A DNA stretch of 27,875 nt. Source: Plicaturopsis crispa FD-325 SS-3 (taxonomy: Eukaryota > Basidiomycota > Agaricomycetes > Amylocorticiales > Amylocorticiaceae). Made by a program: the position numbers and the translations under genes. The notes below the pieces were generated by a model. The model worked only from the letters and a program-made list of their open reading frames with translations, had not been told where the DNA came from and did no database searches. Each line of letters begins with the position of its first letter. Position 1 is the first letter of the stretch. The stretch is taken from positions 1,116,461 to 1,144,335 of the forward strand of contig KN832561.1 in NCBI GenBank assembly GCA_000827205.1, given 5' to 3'. Below, piece after piece: positions 3,181 through 21,981 of the stretch.

Positions 3181-4251
3181 ATGTCCTCCGATGTCCTGCT
3201 CGAAGAATATGAGGTCGGGCTCCCTAATTATTCGATTTGTACGCTGGACCTAACCAAAATGCACATGCCCAGGTCCTCGAGTCGATATATCCCACGGAGC
3301 TCGAAAGTTTGTCGTTGATCTGTATTAACTGTGGTCAGGTCCACTGAGGCTCATTGGAAGAAATATCCGAAAGGGACATACGCATCGATGTTGAACCGGA
3401 CGAGGTAGTCGATGGCCTTGATGAATGCACGTAGCCAAACTAGACCTTTCACCTGTGCCATATTTTGACAGTCTAACAGTGAAACTATCCCTGGGCGTCC
3501 ATTACCCGGACGGATACCCTGATGTACTGCCCGACTTGTCATTAGATGCTGTCGAGGGTACACTCGAAGACTCGGAACGAACTACATTGCTTGATGAGCT
3601 CAAGACCATGGTACGTGGCTACCCCGACTATCTACCTGACGGTCACCAAAGTTTCCGCGTACAGGGAGAAGATAATATCGGGATGGCCATGACGTTCACT
3701 CTTGTGTCCCATTTACGAGAGCGGCTCGCATCCCTTGTCCAAGTAAGAGCTGTAAATCGACAGCGGGCAGAAATGGAGAAGGAGCGGAAGGCTTTGGAGG
3801 TAAGTAACACTGAGCGGACTTTCCACGCGTACCCAGGACATTCGCACTTTATTCGCATTTGACAGGAGGAGGAAGCTCGGACTCGCGGTACCCCTGTAAC
3901 TGTCGAGAGTTTCAGGGCTTGGAAAATCAAATTCGACAAGGAGCTTGCGGCGATAAAAGCTCGCGAGGAAGAGGAACGATTTAAGGGCTTGTCGCCCAAA
4001 GAGCGTGAAGAAATTAAGAGGATCGCCACTCGACCAAGTGGTGAGTATCCGCTATCCAACTCGTCGGACATGGTGCGAGCGATCCTCATGTATCACCAGG
4101 GCGGCAATTGTTCGAACGTGACACCACCCTGGAAGAGGACAACCTCATGGAGGAGGGTACGGTCTCGGTCGACTTCAGTCAGTACGAAAGGAACAGGAAT
4201 TCGGGTAGCGATGATGAGGACGAGGGTATCACCTTCAGCGACAGTGATTGA
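3181..4251 (+). CDS. gir2: RWD-domain protein, Gir2/RWDD1-like
   Basis: Seven exons (3181-3213, 3273-3306, 3349-3430, 3472-3610, 3665-3799, 3866-4040, 4100-4251) give 249 aa with every phase consistent. The N-terminal about 110 residues form an RWD domain: EEYEVLESIYPTELE, then VKLSLGVHYPDGYPDVLPDLSL containing the family's YPxxxP motif, then GMAMTFTLVSHLRERL. A charged coiled coil follows, then an ESFRAWKIKFDKELAA segment typical of Gir2/RWDD1, and an acidic tail (SDDEDEGITFSDSD). In yeast, Gir2 binds the GTPase Rbg2 and Gcn1 at ribosomes; a similar cytoplasmic translation-linked role is inferred. The first donor is the non-standard GTCGGG. The intron at 3431-3471 is only 41 nt, and the 54-nt intron at 3611-3664 is stop-free in frame. 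Confidence 0.88.
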
Positions 4252-4434
4252 GCGCATATTTATCGTCACATCTGTCTCATTTCACTGTATTGGTACGCCA
4301 CACAGAATATGTACTGCTCTCTGTACACATATCACATATCCATCCGCACATTGGAGGTGAAGTCACGTTGCTAAAAAAAATCTATCTGAATTGCAAGGTG
4401 CAAAGCCCGTTATTGTAGTACACGCTCTATGCGA
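4252..4434. other. Convergent 3' region
   Basis: The RWD gene and the alpha/beta-hydrolase gene end toward each other here with 183 bp between stop codons. Both 3' UTRs and polyadenylation signals must sit in it, possibly overlapping. An A-rich stretch lies at about 4373-4381. Confidence 0.5.
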
Positions 4435-7651: not shown

Positions 7652-9305
7652 GTGTGTATATCTCCCTGTCCGTTTGCTCGGAAACAGCTAATCAAGCTCT
7701 TCAGCTTTCTTCACCCATCGGACCCAGGGTGGGACAATGGAATCGACAATGAGGCGTATTACAGTGCGAAGAACAAAGGTATCCTAATTTCACCTGGAGC
7801 TCGGTCGACGACGACGTACCAATCCCATAAACGCCGCTCGTCTCCCCTGGTCGCGCAAACGGACCTCTTCAAACGTGACGCCCATATTGATGTCAATGAA
7901 TCTCGGCGACGCAGCGTGAACTACGACGTGGATGACGGCCATTCGCATCGAAATGTCGACCCCCGCAGTCTGAGTCGCGATGCAAGACCATATCACGCTC
8001 GCGGACTTTCTATCTCCTCACAGGACGACAGGCCACACTTCCCCTCTGAAAACAAAGGAAAAACACGGCGAATGGTACGCGTTTTAATGCTATTTTCTCT
8101 CGCTATATTACGGCTCATGATATTGTCGATGATAGGCGTCCAACGACGATCTTAGATCGAATATGGGGACACGTTTTCATGATATGAGACAAAAACCCAC
8201 CGCAGAGCCAGCACACGACCGCGTAGGAAATCCTGCATCGTCCGCCTTTCGAAATGGTGCTCAGGCAGCACCAATCCTTGTGGATACCCCCCCTTCAGCG
8301 CCGTTGAATCTCCCAGAAGAAAGCTTGAATGACGTCGCCAAAATTATTCACCTCTTCCGAAGCATGGCCAAGTAGATGGTTCCCCTCGATCGATTCGATT
8401 GGACACTGAGGAGTGCGTTTTTAGATTGTCCAGCGATGCCGTTCAAAATACGATGGCCTACGAGAGCGAGGCAAAGAAAATGCAGACGTACACCGAACTG
8501 TCCGACGCCTTGTCCAAAGTGTCCCCCTCAGCAATGGGCGCTGTCTCAGCCTCTCTTACCGACATCGTCGCCCGTCACGCACAGTGCAAGGAGCACGTCG
8601 ACCGAGGCTTCCAATCCCTCGAGGAAGTCTGGCAGGAAGTATTTGGCGTCTTCGTCAAGGGCGTCACCCAAACAATCGATACAAAAATGGAGAGCGCCTT
8701 AGCAGCCATGAAAGTAGAGTGCGAGGCTGCGGTCAAGAACATTGCAGAATCTGGTGCTGCGACTCTAGCAGCTACTCTAGCCGCTCAGGCAGCGGCTGCG
8801 AAAACCCGGAGGACGACTCCCACGGGACCCAGTGCCTATGTTGAGGAACGGCGGGACCGCGAAAAAAATAGGACTCGCGGTCGTACGGATGGAGAGTATC
8901 TCAACCATTCGCGGACCGAGACGCGTGATCGCAGCCGCAGTCCTAGATCTAAAGAGCGCAAGCGCCGCCGCCCTTCCCTTGAACCCAGGTCGGAGAAGCG
9001 ACCCAAAATTGAGGAGGCGCCCGAGTCCCGCTTGATCGAGACGAATGTGCTCGAGGAGATGAGGTTGAAGATGGCAGCGCAGGAGGAACGGCTGAGGGCG
9101 CTGGCGAAAGAGAATAACGACGTGAGTCACGAATCCTTCTGAGCGAATATGTGCCTGCTAACATATACGCTGTGTCTTCAAGCTAAAATCGTCTATGGCA
9201 AAACAAATGGCTGCACACTCACCGCAACCCTCCTCTTCAAATTCCGTGGCGTCAGGCATCGAGCGGCCTATTCCGTCGTTCGCTGGAATTAACACGCAAC
9301 GCTAG
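7652..9305 (+). CDS. Arg/Ser-rich coiled-coil protein, probably nuclear (5' end unresolved)
   Basis: I do not recognise a family. Exons 8136-8371, 8425-9121 and 9183-9305 are well supported by phase and splice sites (GTAGAT, GTGAGT donors; TGCTAAC-type branch site in the last intron). An open frame from about 7652 to 8074 (donor GTACGC) joins in phase but starts at GTG and contains no ATG before its last codon, so one or more upstream exons are missing. The joined frame is about 492 aa. Features are an Arg/Ser/Asp-rich N-terminal part, a predicted helical middle (VSPSAMGAVSASLTDIV through an Ala-rich TLAATLAAQAAAAKTRR), a basic RS-like stretch (RDRSRSPRSKERKRRRP) that looks like a nuclear localisation signal, and a coiled coil (EEMRLKMAAQEERLRALAKE). 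A chromatin or RNA-processing role is possible but only inferred. Confidence 0.6.
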
Positions 9306-12929: not shown

Positions 12930-15900
12930 TCAGCTCTTTGATTTTTTGCTCTTCGACCGGGTGACCTTGACAGGTGGCGCTGTTACTACAGGCTCGACAT
13001 CGTTGTCATAGACGAATTTCTTGACGACGACGTTCTCGGGAACCAAGTCAGTGAGGGGCACTTCTGCGTAGGGATGGTTGCCGAGAGTGTCCAAGCGAAG
13101 CGACTGTAAAGATATCATCAGTCTGCGATAGGCGAAGAAACCAACGAGTATGCATACCTTAGCTGTCCGCGCCAAACAACCCTTCTTGATAAGGATATCT
13201 TTCGGACGGGCTTTGGGGTTGGGATGAATCTCGTCGAGGTATATCTCGGTGTACAGCCCTCGGTCCCATTTCACTCCCTTCCTCTCCTCGCGCTCGCGCT
13301 CCCGTTCTGCATTCTCATCCAGTCTCGCCCTTTTCGCTGCACGTTCGGGCTTAAGAGGCGTCTCGTAGTCTTCCTCGTCGCCAGGCCCTCGCCGGTGCCG
13401 GAGCGGATTCTGGTCAACTTGCGAACTCCCTTCCCAATCCTCCGCCATACTCGATTCTCCTAGGCCTTCATGGTCGCTAGAGCCCCCCGGCCCATCTTCG
13501 CTCCTACGCGCTCTCCGTACCGCGCGCTCCGCCCGCCGCTGGCCCATCTCCTCCTTCTGCCGCTGCAGGATAGTCCTCACTTTGACCGTCGGACTCTCCG
13601 GGCGCGCGCCCTCCTTCCGAATCACCTCCGTCTCCAACTTCGCAGCAATATATTCCTGATTCCTAGTCGTATTAGACGTCGTGAGCGCCTTCAGGGCGAT
13701 GGCGGTCATGCCCCCGAGCGCTGGTTCGGAGCGCGAGGAGGGTGGTTTCCGAGGGGCCTGCAATGGCCGGACGGACCCGAACACGTCGGAAGACTGCACT
13801 GGCTTTCGCAGGCGCGATGTCCGCCGCACTTTTGTATGCGAGGTGTCCGTGTCGGTGTCTGCTGGAGAAGAGCCCGCCGGCGTGTCAGGGGCAGAGGCGT
13901 GAGCGTCAAGAGCGGCGGACGCCTCTCGTAGGACGGGCGACGAGGGCGGCGTGTTCTCCTTCTTGGAGGAGTTAGCTACAGGCTCGTCGCGTTTGGTTGA
14001 CGATTGACCCTCTGCGTCCTCAGAGGTAGGATGTTCCTCCATAGGGGCAGCCTGAACCTCCGGGGCTTTGTGGTTCCTCGCGAAAACACCGTCGACGACT
14101 TTGCGCATATGGCGCTTCACAGGGCTCGGCTCAGGCTGCTGCTGATGTTCCACCAGATGAGGCTTATTGGTGGGAGGCTGGTGATTCCGATGAATCGTCC
14201 CGGGGACGACCTGCCTAATGACGACCACCGGGCGCGCACCAGGAGGAGACGCAGCGCTCGGCCCTGCAGCGCGCTTTCGCTTGAGGTTCGTCGCCGTGAT
14301 GCCACCCGGCGGGTCAACCACCTTCCTAGCATGCATCGTCGTATTCGGGCCCGGCCCCGCGATCGCGTTGGTGTCGTCGGAGCTGCTATCGCTCCCCGAG
14401 CGTACGAGGCGCATGGGCTTCATCTACCCCCCCATCATCTCAATAATTAGTATACTAATAAAATATGAACTGAAAGTACTACGCACCGCGGGAGGCGGCG
14501 GCTCTGCTGCCGGCTGCTGCTGTTTCATGGTGGGCAGTTTACTCTTGGTCGCTGGCCGCGCATAGGGCTTCGCACCGATACGCGGGATGCGGCTCGTATT
14601 CGCAGGCTGCCGCAAACTCGACTTCGCAGGGCTGCGTTCTGCTGCTGCAGTCGACATCCTCCCGATTTTGCTCGGGCTGGCTGGAACGGGAGCGGGAGTG
14701 GGAGTAGGTGCAGACGCATGCTCCGTCTCCTCCGGTATAGATCGCGGAAGATTCTTGCCAACGCCATGGGACGGGATCAGCGGGAATGGTAAGTGAGTTG
14801 TCGGCCGCGGAGCGGACGAGGGGACCGGCCGCTGGAATAACCCGTCCTTACCGCCCGCCATGAACGGAGGGCGCTGCTGCTGCTCAACAGACCCCGCCCG
14901 CTGCCGCGGCTCAACAGACCCCGCCCTTTGCTGCGGCTCCACAGACCCCGCCCTGTGCCTCGGCTCAGCCGACCCCGCCCTCTGCCACGGCTCAGCCGAC
15001 CCACTCCGCTCCCTAGAAAATCCCCGTATGGGCGACGTCATCCTCTTCGCCTCTACTACGGGCACCCTCCTCGCGGGACTGCTCATCGGATCAGGGCGCG
15101 AGAACACGGGGGCGCGCGTCATCGGCGTCCCGTGCGCCTTCCCTGGCACCGGCCTTTGGGGCGACGCGCTCCCTGGCATGGGCCGTTGGGGCGACGCGCT
15201 CCCCTGCGCAACAGCCGCGCTGCCCTGCGCAACAGCCTGCTCGAACGGGATCCTTCGCGCCGGCGTGCGCGACGGGTCATTCCTCGTATCCAAGAACTTC
15301 CCGGGGGAGCTCCCGCGGATCGGGGTATGCGGGACCGCGGGGCGCTGGATGGTGCTCGGGAACGCCGTCGCGTGTGGGCGGGGTGTTTCAGACGGGAATG
15401 GGAATGGTTTGTGCTGCTTTGGTGTGCTCGGGATGGGGTTTTGAATTTGTGCCGCCCTTGGAGGGGGGGATTCAGGGGGATTTTGCCCTTCCACCGATTT
15501 GAGGGCTGGCACCAGTTGCGTCAGGACGTCCGCCGACTCGGGTGAGAGCGACCTTAGCTTCTTGCGGAACGTTTCTTCGGGCTTGCTGTCCGCCCTCCCG
15601 CGCTTGTCGCCGCGCCGCCGTCGGGTTTCTTCAGAGCTCGCCTCGCCGGATACGTCGGGAGTCAGCGCGCGGAGGTCTAGCGCACTAGCTTTGCTGCTTT
15701 CCGCCGACGAGCCAGCAGTGCCGCCTAATGAATCACTAACGACGGGGGATGTACCACGCGCCTGCTGCTTTTGCGTGTCTAGCAGCTCAGCACCGAGACT
15801 AGTTCCAGCTGGCTGTGAGGACGGCGCCGGTTCTAGGGGCGGCGTGCTTATGATATTGCTCGTGTCGATATCAGCGGAGACGATGGATGGAACTGGAACG

Positions 15901-16940
15901 GTGGACGGTGTGACGCTGCGACGGGCTGAGCGTCGGACGGGTGGGTTGGGCGAGGAGAGGCGGGACTGCGGGCGCGGTACGTTTTCTGTGTGATGCGCCT
16001 GGTGTGTCGGGTCCTGAGTGCCACGCTGAACAGTGTCCGTTTCTGGGGGGATAGGCGGAGTAGCCAAGTGTTGCGCAGGAGTTGTATCCGTCTCTGTTGG
16101 AGGTGCCGAGACCATTCCGAGCCCATTGACGGTGGGGAACGCAGGCACGGAGCGGTCCAGAAGATCGTCTACAGCTGCAAGCGGGGACGGGAGTTGGAAG
16201 GACCGGGAAGGGGATGAGAACGAGTCGAAGGATATGAGATCGCGTTGCGAAGTGTTTTCGCGCTGGGGAGTGGATTCGCCTTTCGGCGAGGGCTCGTGGA
16301 CGACCAATGCGGGCAGCGGGGGCGGCGTGTGGTCGGAAAGCAGCATGGGCGAGACCGGTCGCTCGGGGTCGTCGTCTTGTGCTGCGAACATGTTCTCGTA
16401 GGAAGGGTGCGGGGTGGGGGAGTCGATAAGAGGTGGCTGGGTGTCGTCCATGCCCGTGAGCTGGCGTGTCGTCGGTGGCGGGGACGGGTTGGTATGCGCA
16501 TGCATGATCTTGTCAGCCAGTACGGAGGAGGGTTCTGTTATAGTATCATCTGCGTGCTCGAACACAACGTTGTAACTGCACGATCGACAACGAGGCAACG
16601 TACCGTCTCGGCTGAAACGCTCCTCATTCTCAGGCGTCCCAGAGCGCTCGTGCTCTTCTTCTCTATTATTCTCCGCGTCGTCGTCCTTTTGCTCGCCACC
16701 CGAATCGTCGCTGTGTTCGTCTGGGCGCGGAGAGGCGGGACCTGGCGTGGAGAGTCGCGGAGACCGCCGGATTGAGGAGCTTGGGGTGAGCGTGCGTCGA
16801 CGAGCGACGTTGGGCACGAATTTCTTCTCGGGCGAGGTAAGAGGGCCGAAGTAAATCCTTGCCGAGGTCGTGTTGACCGCGTCGCTGTCAGACGCGGAGC
16901 CCGTAGAGCCTGGCGAATTCGTCGCCGAGGCTGTATCCAT
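12930..16940 (-). CDS. Very long disordered Ser/Pro/Arg-rich protein, probably nuclear
   Basis: I do not recognise a named family. Proposed exons 16604-16940, 14487-16549, 13158-14423 and 12930-13103 give about 1279 aa. Most of it is low-complexity Ser/Pro/Thr/Arg sequence with dozens of SP/TP sites, expected to be disordered and perhaps phosphorylated by proline-directed kinases. Two parts look conserved: near the N terminus RIYFGPLTSPEKKFVP then RRSPRLS, and at the C terminus TEIYLDEIHPNPKARP then SLRLDTLGNHPYAEVPLTDLVPENVVVKKFVYDND, ending in a basic SKSKKSKS tail. Two introns (16550-16603 and 13104-13157) are each exactly 54 nt and stop-free in frame, so unspliced forms would also be translatable; the first encodes a Cys-containing stretch unlike the rest, favouring removal. 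The 63-nt intron (14424-14486) ends in an in-frame stop, so splicing there is required. Several coding tandem repeats lie at 14881-15243. Confidence 0.72.
14881..15005 (-). repeat. 27-bp coding minisatellite (about 4.6 copies)
   Basis: Units begin at 14881, 14908, 14935, 14962 and 14989 (partial). On the minus strand each encodes a nonapeptide of the form GSxEPxxRA. The period is divisible by three, so copy-number change keeps the frame. Copies differ by a few bases each, showing some age. Confidence 0.9.
15141..15200 (-). repeat. 30-bp coding tandem duplication (2 copies)
   Basis: 15141-15170 and 15171-15200 are near-identical and encode two GSASPQRPxP-type decapeptides in the disordered protein. 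Frame is preserved. Confidence 0.85.
15202..15243 (-). repeat. 21-bp coding tandem duplication (2 copies)
   Basis: 15202-15222 and 15223-15243 share the core CCCTGCGCAACAGCC and encode an AVAQGSA-like heptapeptide twice, directly beside the 30-bp repeat. Frame is preserved. Confidence 0.8.
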
Positions 16941-17967
16941 CCTCGCGATGTCAAAGGAACGGTATCGATCTGCGGGTATGTCAGAGTGCTGCAGATTTCC
17001 AGAGGTATTGAGACGGAGATATTAGGATAGAAATCCGCAGACTGGACTGCGATTTGAGAAGGAGACGGGTCTGGGAGAAGACGAACGCGGGACAAAGCAC
17101 AAAGTTCGAGGTTGACCAAATGCGCGGTCTCGTGATCAACGCGGTTTCAACACGCTCACACTTTTCGGTGACATCCTACTTACCAGCGTCCTCTTTGAAC
17201 ATACCGCCTAAACCAAGGTCAGAAGTTGAAGCCTACCACCCCGGATGCATGTGTGCAGTCCTCGGTAAGGACTTTTGATTTGCTTTTCACTTCACCAGAC
17301 TTGATTTTTGAATATTGTAGGTAGAAAATCGCGTGGATTCTTGTGCAAAGTGCGTTGTCCAAGTGGAAGCCCAGTGAGCTATTTAGACGTGTACAATGCT
17401 GCATGGGTGGTATACATATGACCCGAGCAGGACGAGGCAGTAGACGTGCGCGAAAGCCCCATCGAAGCGAAATCCGTGCCCTTTCACCTACTTGGCCAGG
17501 CTCCTACAGGAGTAAAAAAAACATGTTATGGCATTTAAGATTTGCAGAACACACTCCAGAGAGGTTCAGTCCTATTATCCATTTGTACGCCTGCCAGTAG
17601 CAAGTTGGGCCAGGAAATTGTTCATGCTAATTCGTGCCCCCGGGCCGCACCTGACCTGACGTTGCCTGATTCTACTAGGGCTACGCAATATTTTAGCAGA
17701 ATTTAAGCGGAGTCTGTACTGTCCAAACGGCTAGTAAAGCAAAATGTATGGTAGGGTTGAACAGAGTAAGTACATTGTTCGAGAAACGGGAGTGGGTGGA
17801 CAGACCGATAGCAGACAGTATAGTCGCGGAGAGTGAACTCTAAAACTCTCTGCGGCCGAACTTACATAGACTTGCATACGCGCACAAGCAAGTGAGTGGG
17901 GGACATTCTTTCGAGCACTATTTGACATGCTACGTAGTAGTACAGAAACATATTTCGTTTCGTCGAT
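16941..17967. other. About 1 kb intergenic region, no supported gene
   Basis: This lies between the start of the disordered-protein gene and the stop of the CmcJ-like gene, both on the minus strand. It should carry the promoter and leader of the former near 16941-17250. Small frames at 17343-17600 and 17731-17928 show no family resemblance or splice continuity. A 3'-UTR function can be assumed near 17900-17967. Confidence 0.45.
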
Positions 17968-19263: not shown

Positions 19264-20122
19264 TGCATGGAGACCGGTGGAGGAATTGCAGCGACGTCCG
19301 ATCATGCGCTAGGTCAAGGGAGATAAAAGGCGTTCAGCTAACCTTGTCCGCGTGAAGAAGTTGGTCGCACCTGGCCGTCATTGCATTTAGAGGCGAACAG
19401 GTGCTGCGTCGAACACTGGCCGTTCAAGTTGGCCGCGGAGACGGCAGTCTGGCAGATAATACGTCCCTACGACATGTACCTAGTGCTCAATGGGTTGAGT
19501 ACAATCGGGAAACTTCAACTAAACCTGGGTCAACCCGGAGAGTCAGTTAGTACATAGTCAACCCCAAAGGACACGAAGGCACCTACCTGGTGCACGTCCC
19601 ATGCCCAGGGTACACTAACATGGCGCAGCTATTTCAAATTCAATGGCTGGAATATGAGCGCTCATACTCATGCCCCGAAACAACCCCGAAGTATGATCGC
19701 CGTGGCCGTACCGGGGTACTTTCGTGGCGTCGGACTGGCCTGTTATGATATTATCAGTGCTCTGTTTTAGATAGACCAGACTCGCTACCTTATGCAGCTG
19801 CTAGTCACTAGTACAGCGATACCAAGGTCGACGGTAGAAATCAGAGGACGCGACGTTGACGCGACGAGGCGGCGCAGTGGTGCGCGGGCTGTGACGAGCT
19901 GTGACCCGGGCGGTACTTGGAGCTCCAAATGGAGATCACCCCTGAGAGAGAGATCCCGACTCCCTCGTGGCTTTCGGCAGCGCAACCGTGCGTCCTCGGC
20001 GCTCGTTTTACAACTTTCTCTCTGCTCCATATCCTGCCTATTGCTCTCCTGTTTCTTTCTTGCGTCGTACCGCACCCCGTCCACACCGTACCCGCTCACC
20101 TGGTGTGAACCCCGACACGAAA

Positions 20123-21981
20123 ATGGCTGTAGAACCGCTACTTGGGACAAGAGCGCAGAAGGCGTTCGTGGGGACCAGTGCGTGTTACAGGGCGATCTCT
20201 GTTTCATCGTGCCATCGAATGCTGATTTTTGCCCAGTTTCTGTCCGTTAGTATCTTTACGAATGATTGGACGTGCGCGCGTCAAATTTGCTCAAACTGTT
20301 ATACAGAGGCCATCGTGGTATTGGTTATGGTCGGGATCACGTTCAGAATGGTGCGCAATACGCTCCCCTGGCCCTCGCCAAGCGCTAACTAGCTCTACAT
20401 GTAGGTCGAGGACCATGTCACGTTCAACACATCACAGTACAAGGTATTCGCCACCTCGCCACATATTTAGTCACCGTACTGACCGCGTTACCGCCAGACA
20501 TTACCATGTTACCTTGCACTATTCGCACTTGCAGAGTGAGTGCCCCTAAAAGCACGACAGGCCTGCTGCTAATAATCGATCCCACAGAATTTTTGAGTTG
20601 TTAATGGCGTTCGATGCCCTGCGGCTACGAAATGTCATCCAGTTGATCGGTATACTCTGTACGGCACTATCATCCTAATACCGATAACCCTTCACTCATT
20701 TGTTCACGAAGTATTCCATGCTGCGCTTATTGTATTTGCTGCACTCCAAGTGCACCAAACACATTCGGCGTTGGTGACAGACCCGGATTGCACAGGCATA
20801 GAGACTACGAAATTCATCGTAAGCTATTTACACTGTGCATTGGTCGGGGGCACTATACTTACAACTCTACGTCCTAGAATTGTCAAGGCCCCGGCACGCT
20901 ATGGAACAAGGTCGAGCCGTTCCTCATCGTTGCACCGTGCGTTATCGCAGTGGCGTGGGTCGCTCTGTTATTCTGGGTAAAGGAGCTCTACGCTGAATTC
21001 GGGTATGGATGACTTCTATCGCCCCCGACGTCCGACTAACGCTGTGCCATAGCTGGGCAATATTCCACGTTGTCGGTGCCAACCCCAAGATGAAAAGTCA
21101 GTAAACCTATAAACACGCCGCAAATATCGCTCTGACCTTGACCCGATAGCGATGTACCAATGGTATCAAATCATGATATGTCTTTTAAAATTCGACTTCT
21201 TCTGTTTCACTGGTGTTACCATGCAGGTGAGCTGATAAAAAAGCTTCTTCACACATAATTTATTCTCATCCCCTCGTAGCTGTTAATCGTTGTATTAAAC
21301 CACGACTCAGCCGAATTCGGTGTTACTGTTGCTGCTATTCCTGTTGTGTTGTTCCTGCTTGCCGGGTGCGGTCGCGCAGTACAGCGAGAGATTAAATGGT
21401 TAGCACTGCTGCTTCAGCTCCGTGAATGTGTACTGATGAGATAACCGTTAGGCTCATGTCGATCTCGCTCGTACTGATGGTCGCTTCCATGTCTTACTTT
21501 GGTAGGATCCTTACATTCGCATTCTCACTACTTGTGACATCAGACTTACTGCGTGCATCTTCTTAGTCTTCAAGCTCGTTCGTTTCTACGAACCCTCTAC
21601 GGAAAACCAGTACACCACGACACGGGCGACATTAACTACCTTCAGTGCGTATCTAAACTAACTATAACTCGTCCGCAGATTGTAAATTAATTGTTGTGCA
21701 GCCATCGTCTCGTTCTTGCTGCTGCTTGGCACATTCGGTGTAGGCCTCCGCTGCTTCAGCGACTTCGACCGGGGGCTGCAGCCATCCAAGGTCAACGGTC
21801 AGTCATATGCACCTGTCCGGCCTCAGGCCCACAAGAGCGGTAATAACATTTCTGTGTGCATGCAGCTGTCCCAATTGGTGCTAAATTCTCGAGTCGTCCC
21901 CCACTCACAGGGAACTCGTCGGAACGGCAAAGCTCGTATTTCGGCGGCGCGCAGATGCAGCAACGAATATCTATCGAGTGA
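20123..21981 (+). CDS. UPF0658-type Golgi multipass membrane protein
   Basis: Fungal polytopic membrane protein of the UPF0658 group (S. pombe C1952.10c type); molecular function unknown. Fifteen exons: 20123-20177, 20237-20245, 20307-20350, 20405-20443, 20498-20535, 20588-20649, 20712-20818, 20878-21002, 21053-21096, 21150-21226, 21280-21398, 21452-21501, 21567-21644, 21702-21797, 21866-21981; 352 aa, all phases consistent. About eight hydrophobic segments are visible, including FVGTISVQAIVVLVMVGITF, LALFALAEIFELLMAFDALR, FHAALIVFAALQV, FLIVAPCVIAVAWVALLFWV and EFGVTVAAIPVVLFLLAG. Recognisable family blocks are YQIMICLLKFDFFCFTGVTMQ, SMSYFVFKLVRFYEPS and the RATLTTF segment before the last helix. 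The cytosolic-type tail ends MQQRISIE. Exon 2 is only 9 nt; skipping it would also keep the frame but shorten the first membrane helix. Confidence 0.86.

Follow-up and report, generated by a model that had tools for sequence, protein, structure and literature searches.

A putative nine-nucleotide coding micro-exon in the first membrane helix of a fungal membrane-protein gene

Positions 20123-20350 of the window, the whole stretch of 27,875 nt analysed here, are very probably best read as containing a 9-nt exon between two short introns. It is highly likely that a nuclear fungal gene has this segment, 20237-20245, as a coding micro-exon with constitutive inclusion, and that the gene encodes a multi-pass membrane protein, provisionally called UPF0658-like; taken by itself, constitutive inclusion is probable. 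Coding micro-exons are very short internal exons, of about 30 nt or less, that possess an acceptor and a donor of their own. The gene as modelled is laid out as follows:

20123..20177, plus strand: coding part of exon 1, from the start codon to a phase 1 end, ACC A
20178..20236, plus strand: intron 1, 59 nt, GTGCGT..CTGAT..GCCCAG
20237..20245, plus strand: micro-exon TTTCTGTCC, 9 nt, giving with its neighbours Ile-Ser-Val and the first base of a Gln codon
20246..20306, plus strand: intron 2, 61 nt, GTTAGT..CTCAA..ATACAG
20307..20350, plus strand: exon 3, beginning AGGCC, remainder of the first membrane helix, QAIVVLVMVGITFRM
20405-20443, 20498-20535, 20588-20658 and 20712-20818, plus strand: exons 4-7 of the gene model
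20878-21002, 21053-21096, 21150-21226 and 21280-21398, plus strand: exons 8-11 of the gene model
21452-21501, 21567-21644, 21702-21797 and 21866-21981, plus strand: exons 12-15 of the gene model
21979-21981, plus strand: stop codon, at the end of exon 15

The putative micro-exon and its gene

The 9 nt are flanked by AG (20235-20236) and GT (20246-20247), and so have both an acceptor and a donor of their own. Joining exon 1, TTTCTGTCC and exon 3 gives ACC ATT TCT GTC CAG GCC, which is in frame and translates to FVGTISVQAIVVLVMVGITF; the skipped form, in which 20177 joins 20307, is likewise in frame and translates to FVGTKAIVVLVM. The preliminary description had placed two intron-like units around nine bases, and on re-reading all of its coordinates and letters were correct. 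Its proposal that inclusion adds Ile-Ser-Val and leaves the helix unbroken also holds, the best 19-residue hydropathy mean being 2.37 with the micro-exon and 1.88 without it, as does its observation that skipping preserves the frame yet brings a lysine into the first membrane helix (FVGTKAIVV).

The gene model spans 20123-21981 on the plus strand, with 15 exons, 14 introns and a product of 355 aa, its borders picked by hand from landmarks, frame and motifs of the family. Spliced alignment with the protein of a paralogue covers nine of the 14 introns and places identical borders in eight; in the ninth the donor is identical and the acceptor lies later. This alignment stops short of exons 1-4, and hence of the N-terminus and the micro-exon site. 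The only family match of the protein is to Pfam DUF7789 (PF25044), over residues 170-291 (E 6.3e-5), and its 23.4 bits fall under the curated Pfam cut-off of 25 bits. An exon-by-exon search of the gene's own genome with the DUF7789 profile gave no match. The UPF0658 identity proposed earlier is not confirmed by this sub-cut-off match; we use the name, and take UPF0658 and DUF7789 to be linked, as an assumption.

One paralogue is found in the same genome (33.2 Mb in 49 contigs; G000), on contig G000:C2, with a protein of 456 aa and 32% identity. Judging by gene structure, this genome is that of a fungus, probably a basidiomycete. The locus of the paralogue (L010, G000:C2:1586500-1591500, minus strand) was modelled by hand with seven exons and has a long extra N-terminus, and its protein matches no Pfam family at E 0.01. 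The paralogue exon is uninterrupted at the site of the micro-exon. MAFFT, given the included form only, places FVGTISVQ opposite YVLTIVVE with no gap, a pairing with a distant paralogue of 32% identity. Global pairwise alignment scores inclusion at 346 and skipping at 340, a difference of 6 units, and places the N-terminus differently. The fit of the paralogue to the Ile-Ser-Val residues thus appears weak. Searches among GTDB contigs, viral contigs and plasmids returned no orthologue of the protein, and solved structures offered no usable relative, the two matches to viral nucleoproteins being at chance level (E 0.3 and 0.52). At the DNA level, a genome search with the 228-nt region, passing over very common words, found one match at E 0.001, and within that scope nothing points to a family of repeated introners.

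Elsewhere in the window, 12930-17021 on the minus strand holds two long open stretches of 865 and 497 codons that share a frame and are separated by one stop, neither giving a Pfam match at E 0.01. On the plus strand, 3863-4360 and 8333-9142 have weak Pfam matches below cut-off, to DFRP_C (Tma46) and COG2_C respectively.

Intron lengths, splice signals and the skipped form

The yardstick consisted of nine genes from this genome, five of them actin-family members and the other four tubulins (two alpha-tubulin, two beta-tubulin-like). Their introns were called by spliced alignment allowing 35-400 nt, a procedure that favours consensus signals and not a particular length. The 72 introns obtained, including 12 from the alpha-tubulin genes used for lengths only, measure 46-90 nt with a median of 55; the longest, at 90 nt, has a low flank identity of 0.29. 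The other 12 introns of the micro-exon gene measure 50-68 nt. At 59 and 61 nt, the introns flanking the micro-exon lie inside the normal range for the genome (46-90, n=72). The single intron needed for skipping, 20178-20306, is 129 nt long, beyond the sampled maximum of 90, and is an outlier because none of the 72 reaches 100 nt.

Splice signals were scored with a model built from 51 yardstick introns; nine of the initial 60 were dropped for flank identity below 0.5. The same model scored its own training introns, which flatters their scores. Intron 1 scores 17.08 bits, at the 25th percentile of the 51, so its signals are ordinary. Intron 2 is the weak point of the micro-exon case: its 12.54 bits fall under the training minimum of 13.12, and its branch-point match is poor, CTCAAA being the best. 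Two of the other 12 introns of the gene score lower still, at 11.83 and 10.39. The model lists ten candidate introns near the site, intron 1 among them; intron 2 falls under the threshold of the list. On reading, candidates with a donor at 20164 (73 nt, 16.78 bits) or an acceptor at 20250 (73 nt, 14.44 bits) lose the frame into exon 3. Two others, 20246 to 20404 (15.53 bits) and 20272 to 20404 (17.30 bits), would take out exon 3 together with the greater part of the helix, and an acceptor at 20308 for intron 2 causes a frameshift.

How often would such a pattern arise by chance? The outer donor and acceptor were held fixed and the interior was dinucleotide-shuffled 20000 times, counting in-frame decompositions into two introns of 45-75 nt around an exon of at most 30 nt. 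Some decomposition of this kind appears in 4557 shuffles. Both introns reach 12.5 bits, a threshold placed just under the observed score of intron 2, in 209 of the 20000 shuffles and in 44 of 2222 real tiles taken from both strands of the window; when the observed summed score must be reached as well, the counts drop to 88 and 20. The pattern alone is therefore expected at about 0.4-2%, a suggestive result that stands moderately beyond chance and is not proof by itself. Beyond the pattern, the case is carried by the lengths of the introns and by codon use, and weakly by the paralogue.

The same measurements bear on the skipped form. The preliminary description saw in the micro-exon a simple switch, in which included and skipped forms would both be made and the first helix altered. 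Nine nucleotides do preserve the frame either way, the skipped form is open, and a 20-nt micro-exon switch has been reported for Trichoderma Xlr2 (PMC11121469). However, skipping would require the 129-nt intron in a genome where all 72 sampled introns measure 90 nt or less, and the product would carry lysine in the helix. Skipped exons also make up 3% of fungal alternative-splicing events, against 61% for intron retention, in a survey covering multiple species (PMC3925392). A regulated switch is accordingly quite improbable. Much the same evidence makes it unlikely indeed that 20178-20306 is simply one 129-nt intron with no micro-exon in it. Its donor, branch point and acceptor sum to 13.22 bits, slightly above intron 2 alone, and the join of 20177 to 20307 is in frame; but this intron is the length outlier, it leaves a good internal acceptor and internal donor unexplained, and it yields the charged residue of FVGTKAIVV.

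Codon use and the predicted order of intron removal

Together, the two introns and the micro-exon (20178-20306) form 129 nt that are in frame and free of stops, and that would insert 43 residues if retained. Read in frame, this stretch scores -0.473 bits per codon, lower than every one of 291 overlapping windows from exons 3-15, which lay outside the codon training. At least as high a score is reached by 79% of intron samples, themselves drawn from introns used in training, so the codon use of the stretch is intron-like. Exon 1 has a mean codon log-odds of about +0.43 to +0.44 (+0.429; the intron backgrounds differ slightly), a score reached by no 18-codon intron window. Its other two frames are positive as well (0.15 and 0.34), so that a coding-like composition is supported for exon 1 more than its frame.

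These scores weigh on two readings that retain intron 1. In one, 20123-20350 is a single exon with a 43-residue insert, as the stop-free frame and a length divisible by three would allow. The codon score, under all 291 coding windows, and the ordinary signals of intron 1 make this highly improbable. In the other, translation starts at ATG 19792 and continues to 20245, and only intron 2 is removed. The frame 19771-20245 is indeed free of stops and continues in frame into exon 3, 19792 is its single ATG, and its first 129 nt score +0.20; yet the score is -0.087 overall and -0.395 in 19921-20049, and this start, which disregards both the signals of intron 1 and the coding-like exon 1, has very little likelihood.

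Under the micro-exon reading, introns of 59 and 61 nt would each be recognised singly, across the intron (intron definition), and for that reason the small exon would be no obstacle. The splicing itself, and the order in which the introns leave, are what we infer from observed sequence, frame, signal scores and intron-like codon use. Intron 1 is predicted to leave first because its signals are stronger, while removing intron 2 first would expose a frameshifting acceptor:

20244..20308, plus strand: latent acceptor GTCCAG/G, formed when removal of intron 2 joins TTTCTGTCC to AG/GCC

Once intron 1 had left, the nine bases would lengthen exon 1 at its 3' end, and intron 2 could then leave as an ordinary intron, giving the in-frame ACC ATT TCT GTC CAG GCC and the unbroken first helix.

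Could the latent acceptor have a role of its own? Relative to the real acceptor of intron 1 it lies 11 nt further on and scores higher, 6.33 against 5.18, and its use shifts the frame so that translation hits a stop. Splicing may then be order-dependent, with removal of intron 2 first leading to the better-scoring acceptor and a frameshift, and removal of intron 1 first to the protein; we regard this as a faint prospect. If it were true, the frameshifted transcript would perhaps be destroyed, removal order would set the output of the gene, and the pyrimidines of the micro-exon would double as a polypyrimidine tract. That intron 2 is the internal part of an acceptor-type stwintron, its removal creating the TTTCTGTCC-AG/GCC acceptor for an outer intron, has a negligible probability: the recreated site outscores the real one, but shifts the frame into a stop.

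Short exons in this genome and in other fungi

The preliminary description called micro-exons of this size rare, which does not agree with the yardstick genes: six of their 63 internal exons do not exceed 16 nt (6, 6, 6, 6, 12 and 16 nt), one of them poorly supported. Three actin paralogues each have a 6-nt exon between ordinary introns, inside the conserved GFAGDD:

L021:420-425, plus strand: 6-nt actin exon, flank identity to the actin query 1.00
L022:1643-1648, minus strand: 6-nt actin exon, flank identity to the actin query 1.00
L023:1572-1577, minus strand: 6-nt actin exon, flank identity to the actin query 0.76-0.82

A fourth 6-nt exon, at L020, is unsupported, with flank identities of 0.29 and 0.24. 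Rarity is also at odds with published cases, since exons of 6 bp and of one nucleotide are reported for fungi (PMC1184071, PMC12940212). The micro-exon is thus ordinary for intron-rich fungi, a fresh case of a known phenomenon; a literature search found no paper on this particular one. Its importance would grow only with a demonstration of the removal-order idea or of a skipped isoform. Its value is mainly for annotation: a gene finder could take the open 20123-20350 as one exon, or omit the nine bases, and in either case give a wrong first helix. Because actin genes of this organism have 6-nt exons, its gene models should permit micro-exons.

Among known systems, stwintrons (spliceosomal twin introns) resemble the present arrangement (PMC6616335) in that two introns lie next to each other and the order in which they leave could be of consequence. 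Here, however, the recreated acceptor shifts the frame and would not be a productive path. The P450 genes of Phanerochaete chrysosporium are reported to contain micro-exons of 2-10 aa, with a shortest exon of 6 bp, and frequent introns of 45-55 bp (PMC1184071). Tiny exons, short introns and a host that is, here probably, a basidiomycete are common to both cases; the gene family differs, and here a single exon of a membrane-protein gene is predicted from sequence. Trichoderma Xlr2 is reported to have a 20-nt micro-exon switch, and its expression changes with glucose (PMC11121469). That tiny exon was likewise missed by gene models, but it is glucose-dependent, whereas the evidence for the present one is genomic. 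The closest parallel in reasoning is the one-nucleotide exon of Fusarium CYP621A (PMC12940212). There too, an apparent intron of more than twice the median length turned out to be two introns flanking a tiny exon, and the outcome was checked against an uninterrupted relative. The Fusarium exon is backed by 20 orthologues and SRA reads, and the present one by the DNA itself and, weakly, by one distant paralogue.
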